This document shows, in pieces, positions 7,881 through 57,451 of a stretch of 64,000 nucleotides of DNA. The first letter of the stretch is position 1, and each line of letters begins with the position of its first letter. The notes beneath the pieces are model-generated. The model saw only the letters and a list, made by a program, of their open reading frames with translations. It did not search any database and was not told the DNA's origin. Both the position numbers and the translations under genes were made by a program. This stretch comes from Cardiobacteriaceae bacterium. GTDB taxonomy: Bacteria; Pseudomonadota; Gammaproteobacteria; Cardiobacteriales; Cardiobacteriaceae. The DNA lies in assembly GCA_030529365.1 (NCBI GenBank), contig JAUMXB010000001.1, positions 62,001 through 126,000 of the forward strand. Direction: 5' to 3'.

Positions 7881-7931
7881 ATGGTCTTGCTGATGAACGC
7901 TCTCCGTATTCGCTAGCGGAGAGCAGCGGGA

Positions 7932-8279
<348 letters not shown>

Positions 8280-12932: not shown

Positions 12933-14043
12933 CGCTCTCTTCCTTCATCCACAGGGCGCTGATCGCGTCATGCAGGGCATCGTGCAGCGCGTCGTGATCG
13001 ACAACCACTGCTTCGTGCAAAAAGCTCAAGGTGAGCATCTTGCGCGCCGCTTCTTCACTCACGCCGCGCGAGCGCAGATAGAAAAGCGCTTCCGGGTCGA
13101 GAAAGCCCACGGTGGAGCCGTGCGCGCATTTCACATCATCGGCGTAGATTTCCAAACGTGGCACGCTGTGCGACGTGGCCTCGTTCGACATCAGCATGTA
13201 GCGGCTGTCCTGCTGCGCATCGGTCAATTGCGCACCGTGCGCCACATAAATGAGGCCGTCGAAAATGCCCTTGGACTGGCCGGCAAGCGCGCCGCGCAGC
13301 ACCTGATGGCTGGTGCCGTTCTCGGTGAGATGGCGCACGACCACATGGCAATCGCCAACTTGCGCGCCCTCCAGCGTTTGCAGGCCGCCAAAGCTGAAAT
13401 CGCCCTGTTCGCCGGTGAGATGCGCTTCGAGATCGAGGCGCGCCAGCGTTCCCCCATGCAGCACGGCATTGAGACGCGCGCGGCTCTCCGTGCCCAGCGT
13501 GCAGAATACATGCGCGAGCTGCGCCGTGCCTTCTTCGCCGCCAAACCACAAGACGCCCTGCAATTCGGCATTGTCCGCAACATCAAGCGTGATTACCGGC
13601 CATTGCGCGGCCTGGCTGCTGCTGCGGAAATCGAACCACAGCGCCGCTTTCGCGCCTTCTTCGACGACGACATGGATGCGCGAGCATTGCAGGGTGCGGC
13701 GCGCGGCATCGATATTGAGGGCGAGCGGCTCTTCCGGCTGCGCGCCTTTGGGAACGGTAAGGGTCAGCGCTTCATCAAGCAGCGCAAAATTGAGCCAGGC
13801 AAAGGGGGCGTCCGCGAGTGCCAGCCAGCGTGCGCGTACGGCTGCATCTTCCTGCAAGCCTTCGTCCACGCTTTCCGGCAAATCGAGCTGGTAGTCGGCA
13901 TGTGCCGCCTTGCGCGCTGCCTTCAAGGCATCGAGCGGCGTCCAGCGCCACGCTTCCACACGCTTCAGGTCACCATAGGCGGCAAAGCGCTCGCCGGCAT
14001 CGTTTTTTTCCTGGCCGAGCAGGTCAAGCAAAGCATGATTCAT
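12910..14043 (-). CDS. sufD: Fe-S assembly scaffold protein SufD
   Basis: A 377-residue protein with the SufBD beta-helix core. Visible features include HGSTVGFLDPEALFYLRSRG, which matches the conserved C-terminal motif where SufD His helps form the SufB-SufD cluster site. It partners SufB and the SufC ATPase. It lies 11 bp after sufC. The N-terminal third is poorly conserved, as usual. Confidence 0.93.
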   Translation of the reverse strand: MNHALLDLLGQEKNDAGERFAAYGDLKRVEAWRWTPLDALKAARKAAHADYQLDLPESVDEGLQEDAAVRARWLALADAPFAWLNFALLDEALTLTVPKGAQPEEPLALNIDAARRTLQCSRIHVVVEEGAKAALWFDFRSSSQAAQWPVITLDVADNAELQGVLWFGGEEGTAQLAHVFCTLGTESRARLNAVLHGGTLARLDLEAHLTGEQGDFSFGGLQTLEGAQVGDCHVVVRHLTENGTSHQVLRGALAGQSKGIFDGLIYVAHGAQLTDAQQDSRYMLMSNEATSHSVPRLEIYADDVKCAHGSTVGFLDPEALFYLRSRGVSEEAARKMLTLSFLHEAVVVDHDALHDALHDAISALWMKEESDDHESVA

Positions 14044-14054
14044 GGTTTGCCGCC

Positions 14055-14822
14055 TTAGCCGCGCGATGCGCCGGCATCGTCACGGAAATCCTGATAGCCG
14101 CGCGCTTCCAGCTCCAGCGCAAGTTCCTTGCCGCCGCTTTGCACGATCTTGCCGTTGACCAGCACATGCACATGATCGGGCACGATATAGTCGAGCAGGC
14201 GCTGGTAGTGGGTAATCACCAGGAAAGAACGCCCGGCATCGCGCAGGGCGTTGACGCCGTCGGCCACCACGCGCAGCGCGTCGATATCAAGGCCGGAGTC
14301 GGTTTCGTCGAGCACGGCGAGCGTCGGCTCAAGCACGGCCATTTGCAGAATCTCGTTGCGCTTTTTCTCGCCGCCGGAAAAGCCGACATTGACCGCGCGC
14401 GACAGGAAAGATTCGTGCATTTTCACGGTCTTCATGCGCGCTTGCAGCAAATCGTAGAATTCCATGGCGTCCATTTCGGGCAACCCCTTGGCAGCGCGCT
14501 TGGCATTCAGGGCCGCTTTCAGGAAATACATATTGCTCACGCCGGGAATTTCCACAGGATACTGGAAGGCGAGGAAAAGCCCGGCACAGGCGCGCTCTTC
14601 CGGCTCCATCTCGAGCAAGTCTTCGCCCATGAAAGTGATGCTGCCTTTTGTGACCACATAGCCCTCGCGCCCGGCAATCACGTTGGCCAGCGTGGATTTG
14701 CCCGAGCCGTTCGGGCCCATGATGGCGTGCACTTCACCGGTGCCGATCGAGAGATCTATGCCCGAGAGGATTTCCTTGCCGCTTTCTTCAATTTCGACGT
14801 GCAGATTCTTGATGTCCAACAT
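14055..14822 (-). CDS. sufC: Fe-S assembly ATPase SufC
   Basis: A 255-residue ABC-type ATPase. Walker A is GPNGSGKST, the signature is [11 protein letters not shown] and Walker B is [12 protein letters not shown], the SufC-specific form. It drives conformational change of the SufBCD complex in the cytoplasm. It sits between sufB and sufD with short gaps. Confidence 0.97.
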
Positions 14823-52470: not shown

Positions 52471-53370
52471 ATGAAAAACACCCCTGAACAGGCATCTACT
52501 GGCGGCGATGCCTTGCCGATTGCCGGTCTGGTCATCGGTTGCGTGCTGTTCGGTCTTGGCAGCCTGATCATCGTTTTCGTGCCGCTTGGCAGCTTTGCCA
52601 TGAGCTTCTGGCGCTTGCTCGTCGGCACTGCCGTCTTTGCCAGTCTTGCCCTGTGGCAGCGCCCCGCGTTTCCCAAGGGGCGGCGCACCTGGCTTTTCGC
52701 CGCGCTGGCCGGCGTGTTTCTCAATGTGGATCTGGCGCTTTGGCATGAAAGCATTCGCGCCGTCGGCCCCGGCATCTCCACTCTGCTGAACAGTCTGCAA
52801 ATTTTCTTTCTTGCTGCCATCGGCTGGTTCTTCTTCGCCGAGCGCCTGAACCGTTGGCAGAACCTCTCGCTGCTGCTTGCCATCAGCGGCGTGGCCCTGA
52901 TCGGCAGCCCGGAGTTCGGGCACAATCATCACGCCCTGTGGGGCTTTGCCAGCGGCATCATCTCCGGCGGCATGCTCGCGGCAAGCATGACCAGCATCCG
53001 CAAAACCCATGAACAGGAAGCCATTTCCCTCATTGCCCTCATGCTGATCCTGAATGGCGCGGGCGCGCTCTCTGCCCTGCCCGTGGCTCTCGTCGCCGGA
53101 GAAACCGTCTGGCCACGCGGCCTTGCCGACGTCGGCCTGATTATGGTTTATGGTCTGGTGATGCAATGCCTCGCCTGGAGCCTGATTGCCTTTGCCATTC
53201 CGCGCCTGTCCCTCGCGCTGACCGGCCTGATTTTGCTCACCGAGCCGGTCGCCGCCCTGCTGATAGACGCCTTCTGGCTGGGCAAACCCATCACTGCCCT
53301 GCAATGGAGCGGCGCGCTGCTGACGCTCTTTGCCATTTATCTCGGCTCCGTCAAGCGTCGCGCAACCTGA
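52471..53370 (+). CDS. DMT-superfamily permease (EamA type)
   Basis: A 299-residue protein with ten predicted helices in two EamA repeats. Typical segments are SFWRLLVGTAVF in the first and LALTGLILLTEPVAALLIDAFWLGKPIT in the second. Such proteins export metabolites; the substrate is not predictable. It stands between dyad element 17 and the amidase operon. Confidence 0.9.
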   Translation: MKNTPEQASTGGDALPIAGLVIGCVLFGLGSLIIVFVPLGSFAMSFWRLLVGTAVFASLALWQRPAFPKGRRTWLFAALAGVFLNVDLALWHESIRAVGPGISTLLNSLQIFFLAAIGWFFFAERLNRWQNLSLLLAISGVALIGSPEFGHNHHALWGFASGIISGGMLAASMTSIRKTHEQEAISLIALMLILNGAGALSALPVALVAGETVWPRGLADVGLIMVYGLVMQCLAWSLIAFAIPRLSLALTGLILLTEPVAALLIDAFWLGKPITALQWSGALLTLFAIYLGSVKRRAT

Positions 53371-53425: not shown

Positions 53426-53527
53426 AAAAACACTCGTTGGCAAGCAAGTTATTGAAGGAAAGAATTTTCTATCTGGCTTTCACGGATGGGCGCCGATATA
53501 CTGGCCGAAAGCCCGAAGGAGATTGTC

Positions 53528-54877
53528 ATGAATCTGCCCCCGCTGCTTACCATCGCCCGACTCAATCATGCCCTCGCGCATGATGCTCTGGATATCCCCA
53601 CGCTGACCGATGCCGCGCTTGCCCGCGCAAGAGCAAGTGAACATATTTTCTGTGCCCTCACCGAAGCGCGCGCACGCCGTCTCGCCGCGCAATGGGCGCA
53701 AGCGCCGCGCGCCCACCCGCTCACCGGCATTCCCGTCTCATGGAAAGATTTGTATGACCAAAGCGGCGAAGTCACCCGTGCCGCCAGCCTCACTACGGCT
53801 TTTGATGACGCCCGTGCGCATGATGCCGTCTCCGTGGCGCTGCTGGAAAGTCTTGGCGCCATTTCCATCGGCCGCACCAACATGACCGAATTCGCGCTTT
53901 CCGGACTGGGGCTGAACCCGCACTTCGGCACGCCTGCCAACGTCTGGTCGCGCGACGTGCCGCTGGCGCCCGGCGGTTCTTCCAGCGGTGCTGCTGTTTC
54001 CGTCGCTTCCGGTATCGTGGCCTATGCCATGGGTACGGATACTTCCGGCTCCATCCGCATTCCTGCCGCCCTGAACGGCCTTGCCGGCTTCCGCCCCACC
54101 TCTTCTCGCCTCTCGCGCATCGGTGTATGGACGCTCGCGCCCACGCTCGACAGCATCGGCCCGCTCGCCCATACCGCGGAAGACATCTGCACCATCATGC
54201 GCGCCTTCGCCATCGATGCCAATAGCGCACGGGATGCGCCCCTGCACTTCGTCGTTCCGCAGGGGCGGCTCACGGAAAACGTCTCTCCCGATATTGCCGC
54301 CGATTTTGCCGGCACGCTTGCCCGCCTGCGTGAAGCAAACCTGCCCATCACGCCGCTGGAAATTCCGGAACTCACTGCACCACTCGCGCTTTTCAAGGAA
54401 TACGGCACTCTCATCGCCCTTGAAGCCTGGCACATGCACCGCGATGCCCTTGCCCATGCCGGCATGATGGACGCTCGCGTGGTTGACCGCCTGCAAAGCC
54501 ATGCCCACTATCCCGCCTCGCATATCGGCTATCTCCTCACCCAACGCGCCGCATGGCAGCAAACCCTTGCCGCGCGCCTCGGCGATGCCCTGGTGCTCCT
54601 GCCCACCACAGCCATCGACGCGCCCCCCATTGCCGAACTGGAAGCGGACAATGCCTTTTTTGACACGCAAAACCGCAAAATGCTGCGCAACACCATGATG
54701 GGCAGCTTTTTCGACATGCCCGCCATTACCATCCCCACCGGCATCAAGGCCAACGGCCTGCCCGGCGCGCTGATGATAGCGGGCGCAAGTGGCCGCGACG
54801 AAGCGGTACTGCATGCAGGGCGGCAGCTTGCCAGCCTGCTTACGGGCGATATACCCCTGAACGAACGGCGCTTCTGA
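53528..54877 (+). CDS. amidase-signature enzyme
   Basis: A 449-residue amidase-signature hydrolase. The Ser-cisSer-Lys triad is visible: Lys73 in PVSWKDLYD, cis-Ser in PGGSSSGAAVS (about 151-152) and Ser175 in GTDTSGSIRIP. Sequence resembles the AtzF/AtzE and allophanate-hydrolase amidase group, so a small amide is likely. It heads an apparent operon with an imidase/PgdA-like deacetylase, a mini-protein and a COG0523 GTPase. In that setting it could be the half-amidase acting after ring opening (inference). CGAAGGAGATTGTC precedes the start. Confidence 0.88.
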   Translation: MNLPPLLTIARLNHALAHDALDIPTLTDAALARARASEHIFCALTEARARRLAAQWAQAPRAHPLTGIPVSWKDLYDQSGEVTRAASLTTAFDDARAHDAVSVALLESLGAISIGRTNMTEFALSGLGLNPHFGTPANVWSRDVPLAPGGSSSGAAVSVASGIVAYAMGTDTSGSIRIPAALNGLAGFRPTSSRLSRIGVWTLAPTLDSIGPLAHTAEDICTIMRAFAIDANSARDAPLHFVVPQGRLTENVSPDIAADFAGTLARLREANLPITPLEIPELTAPLALFKEYGTLIALEAWHMHRDALAHAGMMDARVVDRLQSHAHYPASHIGYLLTQRAAWQQTLAARLGDALVLLPTTAIDAPPIAELEADNAFFDTQNRKMLRNTMMGSFFDMPAITIPTGIKANGLPGALMIAGASGRDEAVLHAGRQLASLLTGDIPLNERRF

Positions 54878-54913: not shown

Positions 54914-55795
54914 ATGTCCAAGAAAATACTGGTAGCTTATGGTGTGGATGTAGATGCCGTGGCGGGCTGGCTTGGCTCCTACGGCGGGGAAGACAGTCCC
55001 GACGACATCTCGCGCGGCATGTTCGCCGGAGAAGTCGGCTCCATCCGTCTCCTCAACCTTTTCGACAAATACCAGCTGAAAACCACCTGGTTCATTCCGG
55101 GGCATTCCATCGAAACCTTCCCCGAGCAAATGGGCGAAGTGGCGCGGCGTGGTCATGAAATCGGCATTCACGGCTACAGCCACGAAAACCCCATCGCCAT
55201 GACCCGCAGGCAGGAAACTGCCGTGCTTGAACGCTCCATCGAGCTGATCACCGATCTCACCGGCAGACGCCCGACCGGCTATGTCGCGCCATGGTGGGAA
55301 TTCAGCAACATCACCAACGAACTGTTGCTCTCGCACGGCATCAAGTACGATCACTCGCTGATGCACAACGATTTCCATCCCTACTACGTCCGCGTCGGCG
55401 ACAGCTGGACGAAAATCGATTACAGCCAGGATGCCGAATACTGGATGAAGCCGCTGGTACGCGGTCGGGAAACGCCGCTTGTAGAGATTCCGGCCAACTG
55501 GTATCTCGACGACTTGCCGCCGATGATGTTCATCAAGAAATCGCCGAACAGCCATGGCTTCGTCAACCCGCGCGACATCGAACAAATGTGGCGCGACCAG
55601 TTCGACTGGGTTTACCGTGAAAACGACTACGCCGTCTTCACCATGACCATCCACCCTGACGTATCCGGCAGACCGCAAGTGCTGCTCATGCACGAGCGCC
55701 TCATCGAATACATCAACAGCCATCCGGGCGTGGAGTGGTGCACCTTCGACGAAATCGCCGACGATTTCATCGCAAGGCAACCCTTCCGGCCCTGA
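54914..55795 (+). CDS. polysaccharide deacetylase-fold hydrolase (HpPgdA/imidase-like)
   Basis: A 293-residue NodB-fold protein very like Helicobacter pylori PgdA. The opening [20 protein letters not shown] and the metal ligands Asp14, His86 and His90 (IHGYSHENP) are at the same positions as in that enzyme. The same subgroup also includes cyclic imidases and PuuE-type allantoinases. Next to an amidase, ring opening of an imide is at least as likely as peptidoglycan deacetylation; no signal peptide is present, which favours a cytoplasmic small-molecule substrate. A small CCCG..CGGG inverted repeat lies in the 36 bp gap to the amidase. Confidence 0.87.
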
Positions 55796-55809
55796 TTTCT
55801 CCCACCACA

Positions 55810-55831
55810 GGGACGTTGCTCGCAACGTCCC
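55810..55831. repeat. GGGACGT-type hairpin repeat, copy d (perfect 10 bp stem)
   Basis: GGGACGTTGC, loop TC, GCAACGTCCC. It lies 14 bp after the deacetylase stop and 15 bp before dyad element 18. Confidence 0.8.
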
Positions 55832-55846
55832 AAATACAAACCGAAA

Positions 55847-55897
55847 ATAGTCATTTTTTACCGCAACAAGCGCTTTATCATGGTAAAAAATAACTAT
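55847..55897. repeat. AAGCGCTT dyad element 18 (one unit)
   Basis: Single core at 55868-55875 within ends ATAGTCATTTTTTACC and TGGTAAAAAATAACTAT. It is the clearest one-unit copy, 51 bp and near-perfectly palindromic. It ends 13 bp before the start of the MCGLCG gene. Confidence 0.92.
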
Positions 55898-55910
55898 AAT
55901 GGAGCAAAAC

Positions 55911-56201
55911 ATGTGCGGATTATGCGGCATCTTCGGCGAAAGCGCCCACTGGAGCACGCGGCTGGAAAGCAACGGACAAAGCAGCGAGCCCAGCCAGCGC
56001 CGCCTGTTGCGGCAACGGCGCATCGCCGCCATCAACCGCATGCTTGCCGCCAGCCATATCCGCGTCAGCGACTGGCAGGGCTGCCAATACCAGATTACCA
56101 GCGCCACCGGCCAGATTCTCCTCGCGGAAACCCTGAGTCACCTGTGGCAGGCCGTTGCCAGTATCCGTCCTTTTGACCCGCTTCGTCTGCCGCCGTCATG
56201 A
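55911..56201 (+). CDS. MCGLCG mini-protein, CobW-associated
   Basis: A 96-residue protein starting MCGLCGIFGESAHW. The N-terminal Cys2 context resembles the nucleophile end of class II glutamine amidotransferases (MCGI/LCG), but the rest of that domain is missing. Cys2, Cys5, His13 and Cys58 could form a metal site. I recall similar short proteins beside CobW-type GTPases, without a known role. GGAGCAAAAC precedes the ATG. It overlaps the GTPase start by 4 bp, so a joint function is likely. Confidence 0.75.
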   Translation: MCGLCGIFGESAHWSTRLESNGQSSEPSQRRLLRQRRIAAINRMLAASHIRVSDWQGCQYQITSATGQILLAETLSHLWQAVASIRPFDPLRLPPS

Positions 56202-57160
56202 AAATTCCCGTTCTGATCCTCACCGGCTTTCTCGGCGCCGGCAAAACCACCGTCCTCAAAAAAATCCTTGCCGCCGAATCCTATGGCGACAGCGCCGTAC
56301 TCATCAACGAATTCGGCGAAGTCGGCATCGACCAGCAACTCGTCGAACCTGTATCGCCCAACGTCGTCCTTCTCGATTCCGGCTGCATCTGCTGCCAGAT
56401 TCGCGGCGAACTCAAGGAAACCCTGGCAAGCCTTCTCGACCGCCGTGCCCAAGGGCTGCTGCCGCCCTTCCGCCGCATCATCATCGAAACCACCGGCCTT
56501 GCCGAACCCACCCCCATCATTGCCACCCTGCAAGCCGACCCCATGCTCTGCCACCAGCTTGCCGCCGAACGCACAGTGACCGTTGTCGATGCCGTGAATG
56601 GCGATGCCATGCGCGGCAACCCTGTCTGGTTGCAGCAAGTCAGCGCAGCCGACATCATCCTCATCAGCAAGAGCGACCTTGCGCCAGCGCGGGCTGAAGC
56701 GCTTGCCGCCAGCTTGCGGGCGCTATTGCCCGGCATCACCATTCTTCGCCACGGCCTTGATGATTCCCTGCCCGACTTTTCCGCCCTGCCCGTGCCGGCT
56801 TTCCGCGCAAAATCCGCAGCCCCGCAAGGTGTGATGCCCGACGTGCATTCCCTCGCGCTGACGCTCGACGAACCGCTGGACTGGATTGCCTTCAGCGTCT
56901 GGCTATCCGCCCTGCTGCATGTTCACGGCACGGCCATCCTCCGCATCAAGGGCATCCTCGACATCGGCGAGGACTATCCCGTGCTCATCAACGGCGTCCA
57001 GCACATGATCTATCCGCCGCAGCATCTTGGCGAATGGCCGGCGGGAAAACGGCAATCGCAGCTTGTCATCATCAGTCAGGGCATAGCCGCCGACACCATG
57101 GAAAAATCTTTTCGCTATCATGTTGTTGGCGCAGCACCCGACGGCCGGCCTGCTGAATGA
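56198..57160 (+). CDS. COG0523 (CobW-like) GTPase, putative metallochaperone
   Basis: A 320-residue G3E-family GTPase. The P-loop is GFLGAGKTT (10-18), the metal-binding CXCC is GCICCQ (Cys63, Cys65, Cys66), and ETTGLAEP and SKSDLA follow. The CobW C-terminal domain is present but no His-rich tail. COG0523 proteins insert metals, often zinc, into target enzymes. Its operon partner at 54914 has a metal site, making it the obvious client candidate. It is not linked to cobalamin genes here. Confidence 0.9.
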   Translation: MKIPVLILTGFLGAGKTTVLKKILAAESYGDSAVLINEFGEVGIDQQLVEPVSPNVVLLDSGCICCQIRGELKETLASLLDRRAQGLLPPFRRIIIETTGLAEPTPIIATLQADPMLCHQLAAERTVTVVDAVNGDAMRGNPVWLQQVSAADIILISKSDLAPARAEALAASLRALLPGITILRHGLDDSLPDFSALPVPAFRAKSAAPQGVMPDVHSLALTLDEPLDWIAFSVWLSALLHVHGTAILRIKGILDIGEDYPVLINGVQHMIYPPQHLGEWPAGKRQSQLVIISQGIAADTMEKSFRYHVVGAAPDGRPAE

Positions 57161-57451
57161 GGCCTTTTCATGAACCAGCCGACAGCAAGCCGGGAATGCC
57201 AATGGATCAGCCCGTTTCTGATTTACCCGGTGACAGGATTTGCCAGGGCAAAGGATGGGAAGAGTGGCCTTGAATCCTGTTCGTATTTGAGCCAGAAACG
57301 CCCAGGCGCATCATGGTTTCTTTGGCAAACGCTATTGCACAATGGAAGGCACGCAGTCTGCCTGAGAGCCCAATTTCCCGCTGCTTGCAGCATGGCAAAG
57401 CCCAACAGCCCCCGAAAGGCATTGCGAGAGAAGTGCGGGCAACGGCGTCCA

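Follow-up and report, generated by a model that had tools for sequence, protein, structure and literature searches.

A conserved cysteine mini-protein encoded with an imidase-type hydrolase and a COG0523 GTPase in proteobacteria: a candidate partner in metal delivery

The gene at 55911-56201 of the window, the 64,000-nucleotide stretch of a Cardiobacteriaceae genome analysed here, encodes a 96-residue protein with the N-terminus MCGLCGIFGESAHW. It is a genuine protein-coding gene rather than a chance open reading frame, and its product, here called MCG, represents a conserved, undescribed protein family for which neither Pfam nor NCBIfam has a model. The case is somewhat better than even that MCG is a dedicated partner of the COG0523 GTPase encoded directly downstream, and that the two proteins together metalate the imidase encoded beside them in operons of cyclic-imide catabolism. 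For most COG0523 GTPases, neither a client nor a partner is known (PMC9164220); the three-gene unit suggests both for one such GTPase, the client being an imidase-type metalloenzyme and the partner an undescribed cysteine mini-protein. The unit occurs in numerous proteobacteria and also on plasmids of Klebsiella. In the window, the genes and signals of interest are as follows:

52471-53370, + strand: candidate operon transporter, an EamA/DMT-like integral membrane protein (open reading frame with hydrophobic sequence, assigned by eye)
53528-54877, + strand: amidase of the amidase-signature family (PF01425, 8.5e-63; alternative ATG at 53486)
54914-55795, + strand: imidase-type (HP0310/HxnM-like) CE4-fold metal hydrolase, 293 residues (assigned by identity to HP0310)
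55911-56201, + strand: MCG mini-protein gene, N-terminal MCGLCG (translation; family of 120 distinct members)
56198-56201, + strand: ATGA stop/start overlap of the MCG and GTPase genes (sequence)
56198-57160, + strand: COG0523 G3E GTPase, YjiA-like, 320 residues (PF02492, 5.6e-44; PF07683, 1.2e-18)

The MCG gene and its family

The ATG of the MCG gene has a GGAG 6 nt upstream, and an alternative in-frame ATG lies 5' of it at 55899. In all 120 distinct relatives the codon immediately 5' of the first cysteine is a start codon (118 ATG, 2 GTG), so that cysteine is residue 2 throughout the family. Both the length of 96 residues and the 4-bp overlap with the COG0523 gene agree with the original prediction, which was made from this DNA alone. 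The 115-bp spacer between the imidase and MCG genes (55796-55910) is A+T-rich, with 40% GC vs 58% for the window, and contains a TATAAT string just 5' of the MCG start; sigma-70 promoter calling on this spacer returned none.

A family search for short proteins of this type, proposed with the original prediction, yielded 318 confirmed loci when GTDB genomes, one per species, were scanned with a single N-terminal motif. An alignment of 120 distinct members from alpha-, beta- and gammaproteobacteria, all of 92-117 residues, showed Cys2, Cys5, Trp14, Gly67, Trp79 and Asp89 to be invariant (120/120) and His13 to be kept in 114. The importance that had been attached to Cys2 and Cys5 was thus borne out, with no loss of cysteine conservation seen, and His13, named with them as part of a possible metal-transfer site, is almost invariant. 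The median dN/dS was about 0.11 over 456 pairs, and MCG is therefore under purifying selection as a protein. Pfam and NCBIfam searches gave no match for the window protein and no credible match for ten of its relatives, so the description "uncharacterised" stands. MCG motif strings were not found in the literature, where an earlier mention in the COG0523 review PMC8360895 is possible.

The family is broadly but sporadically distributed. Searches by tblastn with MCG gave best E values of 3e-12 in plasmids and about 5e-19 in genomes, and placed the gene on 58 plasmids. Carriers include Rhizobium, Agrobacterium, Ensifer, Shinella, Mesorhizobium, Reyranella, Leisingera, Thioclava, Skermanella, Acidiphilium, Paraburkholderia, Halomonas and Pantoea, as well as plasmids of Klebsiella pneumoniae. 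Only one of 12 genomes of the window's own family carries it (this genome), as do 9 among 398 from the phylum in a single-sequence search. A phage or viral origin was rejected, as searches of phages and IMG/VR found no relative. Both cysteines persist in divergent members, with N-termini MCGFCA, MCAFCA, MCSSCGFPAAPGHW or MCANCGFPAAPGHW. Two such branches, one of the MCGFCA type and one of the MCxxCGFPAAPGHW type (loci L134, L135, L142, L161, L167 and L168), keep the cysteines while the remainder of the protein differs, and the imidases that accompany them may act on a different range of substrates.

AlphaFold2 was used to model the window protein and one Rhizobium member, with a 50-sequence alignment drawn from loci other than those of the plasmids and the genome search. 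Mean pLDDT was about 73; a core of helix, three strands and helix is predicted with confidence, and confidence is low over roughly residues 1-24. The models suggest that the cysteine segment is probably flexible, or ordered only by a metal or a partner. Foldseek and VIA searches of the PDB with the model found nothing convincing, an absence that proves little given a moderate model with a poor N-terminus.

The imidase-type enzyme, the GTPase and their operons

The gene directly 5' of MCG, absent from the original prediction, would carry the annotation "polysaccharide deacetylase". Its product is 79% identical to Helicobacter pylori HP0310 (HpPgdA; PDB 3qbu) over 291 residues without a gap and retains all five metal and active-site residues (Asp12, Asp14, His86, His90 and His247), whose equivalents bind or surround the metal in the HP0310 structure (PMC3084791). 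HP0310 has no signal peptide and no polysaccharide groove and was inactive on the tested polysaccharide substrates and on allantoin, and a small substrate was argued for (PMC3084791); a later study reported acetyl esterase and acetylxylan esterase activity (PMC3688963). HP0310 is also the closest structural relative of HxnM, a fungal cyclic-imide hydrolase of nicotinate breakdown that is 64% identical to the cyclic-imide hydrolase of P. putida (PMC9304392, PMC8478523). By sequence, the window enzyme belongs to the imidase (cyclic-imide hydrolase) family, its putative hydrolytic activity being read across from the P. putida imidase and HxnM. An assignment as allantoinase (PuuE) was rejected: the sequence is far nearer to HP0310/HxnM, HP0310 does not act on allantoin, and the metal-binding residues of HP0310 are kept, whereas PuuE binds no metal (PMC3084791).

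In the fungal pathway, HxnW, a dehydrogenase, forms the imide, whose ring is opened by HxnM before the amidase HxnN frees ammonia (PMC9304392, PMC8478523). MCG operons follow a similar imide-pathway logic of dehydrogenase, imidase and amidase, but the papers on the fungal pathway mention neither an MCG nor a COG0523 partner (PMC9304392, PMC8478523). Across 111 MCG loci, some of which are the same record fetched twice, an imidase lies within the locus in 110, SDR dehydrogenases in 92 and an amidase or asparaginase in 87. Transporters vary among the relatives (ABC, MFS or NCS1), and one locus (L123) has a dihydropyrimidinase. In the window, the amidase at 53528-54877 probably hydrolyses the ring-opened half-amide, and the membrane protein at 52471-53370 is, from its position, a possible transporter of the operon.

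The GTPase has a CobW nucleotide-binding domain (PF02492, 150 bits) and a CobW_C domain (PF07683, 67 bits), both above cut-off, with a P-loop at residue 9 and the CxCC motif as CICC at residue 63; CxCC was present in all 104 related GTPases that had the scanned P-loop. Its nearest solved relative is YjiA, and it scores under the NCBIfam cut-offs of all named equivalogs. The predicted coupling of MCG to this GTPase held in the neighbourhood comparison, the GTPase being the next tracked gene after MCG in 110/111 loci, as constant a companion as the imidase. The distance from the MCG stop to the P-loop codon is at most 40 nt in 89 of 104 loci. A short terminator-like stem and T-run at the end of the GTPase gene (57147-57164) may be due to chance, since a scan gave fewer such sites than shuffled sequences.

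The two exceptions fall at different loci. L021 has no local imidase; the same contig carries one at a distance of about 208 kb. L143 is the sole locus with no GTPase adjacent to MCG; a divergently oriented imidase adjoins it, asparaginase-like and molybdenum-hydroxylase-like genes were recognised nearby by sequence inspection, and the same genome holds a second, complete imidase-MCG-GTPase set (L144). In a plasmid of Acidiphilium multivorum (L172), the PLSDB gene table enters no gene between imidase and GTPase, despite an MCG gene there at about 7889-8205 (E 7.8e-31).

Imidases of at least 66% identity occur in the same 10 of 398 sampled genomes as MCG, four of which belong to one genus, so that independent events are fewer. 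Imidase loci that lack MCG were found in Rhodococcus (72%), Rouxiella (71%), Variovorax (64%) and Natrononativus (50%) and in three paralogs near 35%, and these likewise have no adjoining GTPase; in the four plasmid records with a lone imidase, neither an MCG nor a CobW_C gene was found anywhere in the record. It follows that GTPase and MCG are gained or lost jointly, while the imidase is able to stand alone. Partial distance correlations were highest for MCG and GTPase (0.54) and lower for MCG and imidase (0.45), values that are a hint only because operon mates share ancestry. On the Rouxiella badensis plasmid NZ_CP060593.1 (W02), a second imidase at 13294-14165 is split in two frames and is apparently a broken copy.

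Metal delivery and alternative roles of MCG

COG0523 proteins have a metal-binding site at CxCC and serve metalloenzymes. In the HypA/HypB and UreE/UreG pairs of nickel enzymes, metal is exchanged between the small protein, HypA or UreE, and a related GTPase, HypB or UreG (PMC9164220). By analogy, MCG may be a counterpart of UreE and HypA, a small carrier or adaptor, with the imidase as client; we infer here metal binding by MCG, the metal involved, the direction of its transfer, the direct contacts and the imidase substrate. Met1 would be removed, as expected from the small size of Cys2, exposing the cysteine as the N-terminal residue. The flexible N-terminus could then offer a metal site made up of the cysteine amine, Cys2, Cys5 and, in most members, His13, while the helix-three strands-helix core would dock onto either the GTPase or its client. 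Metal transfer between the CxCC of the GTPase and the MCG site would be driven by GTP turnover, and the metal would then pass on to the Asp/His/His site of the imidase. Imidases do not all need the pair, since those of Rhodococcus, Rouxiella, Variovorax and haloarchaeal plasmids occur without it; for the same reason, it may matter under metal scarcity or in selecting a particular metal.

HypA/HypB and UreE/UreG are similar in that the genes for a small protein, a G3E-family GTPase and the metalloenzyme occur together, but no sequence relationship of these proteins to MCG was detected, and the GTPase partner of MCG is a COG0523 protein with a putative imidase as client. HypA has metal-ligand residues near its N-terminus, where the conserved cysteines of MCG also lie. 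However, HypA starts with Met-His and has two CxxC zinc pairs, while all MCG members start with MC and have a single N-terminal CxxC, whose cysteines are the only conserved ones. Nha3, CobW, ZigA/ZagA and YjiA resemble the neighbouring GTPase in their CobW_N and CobW_C domains, P-loop and CxCC, but a dedicated cysteine mini-protein is not described for those systems in the literature consulted. Nha3, the nitrile hydratase activator, serves a hydrolytic, nitrogen-releasing metalloenzyme (PMC9164220).

It is rather unlikely that MCG instead serves the imidase (or the amidase) as a small subunit, stabiliser or redox regulator, its CxxC being a thiol switch or a structural knot around a metal, with the GTPase acting on MCG rather than with it. 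The near-constant imidase neighbour would fit such a role, as would the MCG-imidase distance correlation and the matched copy numbers in two genomes (G844 and G946, each with two MCG genes and two imidases). However, close imidases of 64-72% identity occur without MCG, and HP0310 crystallised alone as a homotetramer (PMC3084791). The GTPase is missing whenever MCG is missing, which indicates that MCG goes with the GTPase.

That link could also mean that MCG regulates the GTPase, as an exchange factor or activator with structural cysteines and no metal-carrying role. The strict pairing and translational coupling of the two genes are consistent with regulation, and the compact core that AlphaFold2 predicts with confidence does not include the cysteines. 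This role is nonetheless improbable, as cysteines 2 and 5 are fixed in every aligned member at a flexible N-terminus, a pattern suggestive of a functional site and not of one in a structural core.

The original prediction had also called the N-terminus amidotransferase-like. Class-II (Ntn) glutamine amidotransferases have the N-terminal signature MCGIxG and a domain of roughly 200 residues or more. The likeness of the short MCGxCG string stands, with a cysteine right after Met1 in both and an MCGxxG pattern; homology finds no support, as single-sequence and profile searches of Pfam, NCBIfam and PDB sequences gave no amidotransferase match. MCG proteins are at most half the length of these enzymes, and their models show helix, three strands and helix; no PDB fold matched convincingly, in a weak search that excludes nothing. 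By sequence, the homologues are not amidotransferase fragments, and that reading was rejected. A degenerate or miniature class-II enzyme with an N-terminal cysteine nucleophile, although in keeping with an operon that handles amides, is hardly credible, given a second invariant cysteine at residue 5 that is foreign to the class-II signature and the amidase or asparaginase already present in most loci.

The Helicobacter pylori locus and a possible carrier class

In H. pylori, HP0309 (annotated as N-carbamoyl-D-amino-acid amidohydrolase), HP0311 (hypothetical) and HP0312 (ATP-binding; a COG0523 member) lie near HP0310 by locus number (PMC3866246, PMC2770081), and the structure paper on HP0310 anchored this gene context a second time with HP0312 (PMC3084791). 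Because this locus order matches imidase-MCG-GTPase, HP0311 is predicted to belong to the MCG family. On the bolder reading set out below, HP0310, the H. pylori "peptidoglycan deacetylase", would be an imidase of the cytoplasm, with HP0311 and HP0312 as its maturation proteins. The three-gene unit bears on a disputed function, as HP0310 has long been named a peptidoglycan deacetylase and the purified enzyme is inactive on the usual deacetylase substrates (PMC3084791).

Nickel superoxide dismutase has an N-terminal hook in which a glycine and two cysteines lie close to the processed end, with the backbone amine as a ligand. MCG likewise has two cysteines and a glycine near its N-terminus, and its amine could be a ligand, but the spacing differs and there is neither a proline nor an N-terminal histidine. 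A bolder proposal, put forward tentatively, is that MCG proteins, HP0311 included, make up a third class of small metal carriers for a G3E GTPase that evolved independently, in which a nickel-SOD-type hook, formed by a processed N-terminal Cys-x-x-Cys(-His), would bring a specific metal to imidases. The whole imidase-MCG-GTPase catabolic operon is also present on a conjugative Klebsiella pneumoniae plasmid from cerebrospinal fluid (L122).
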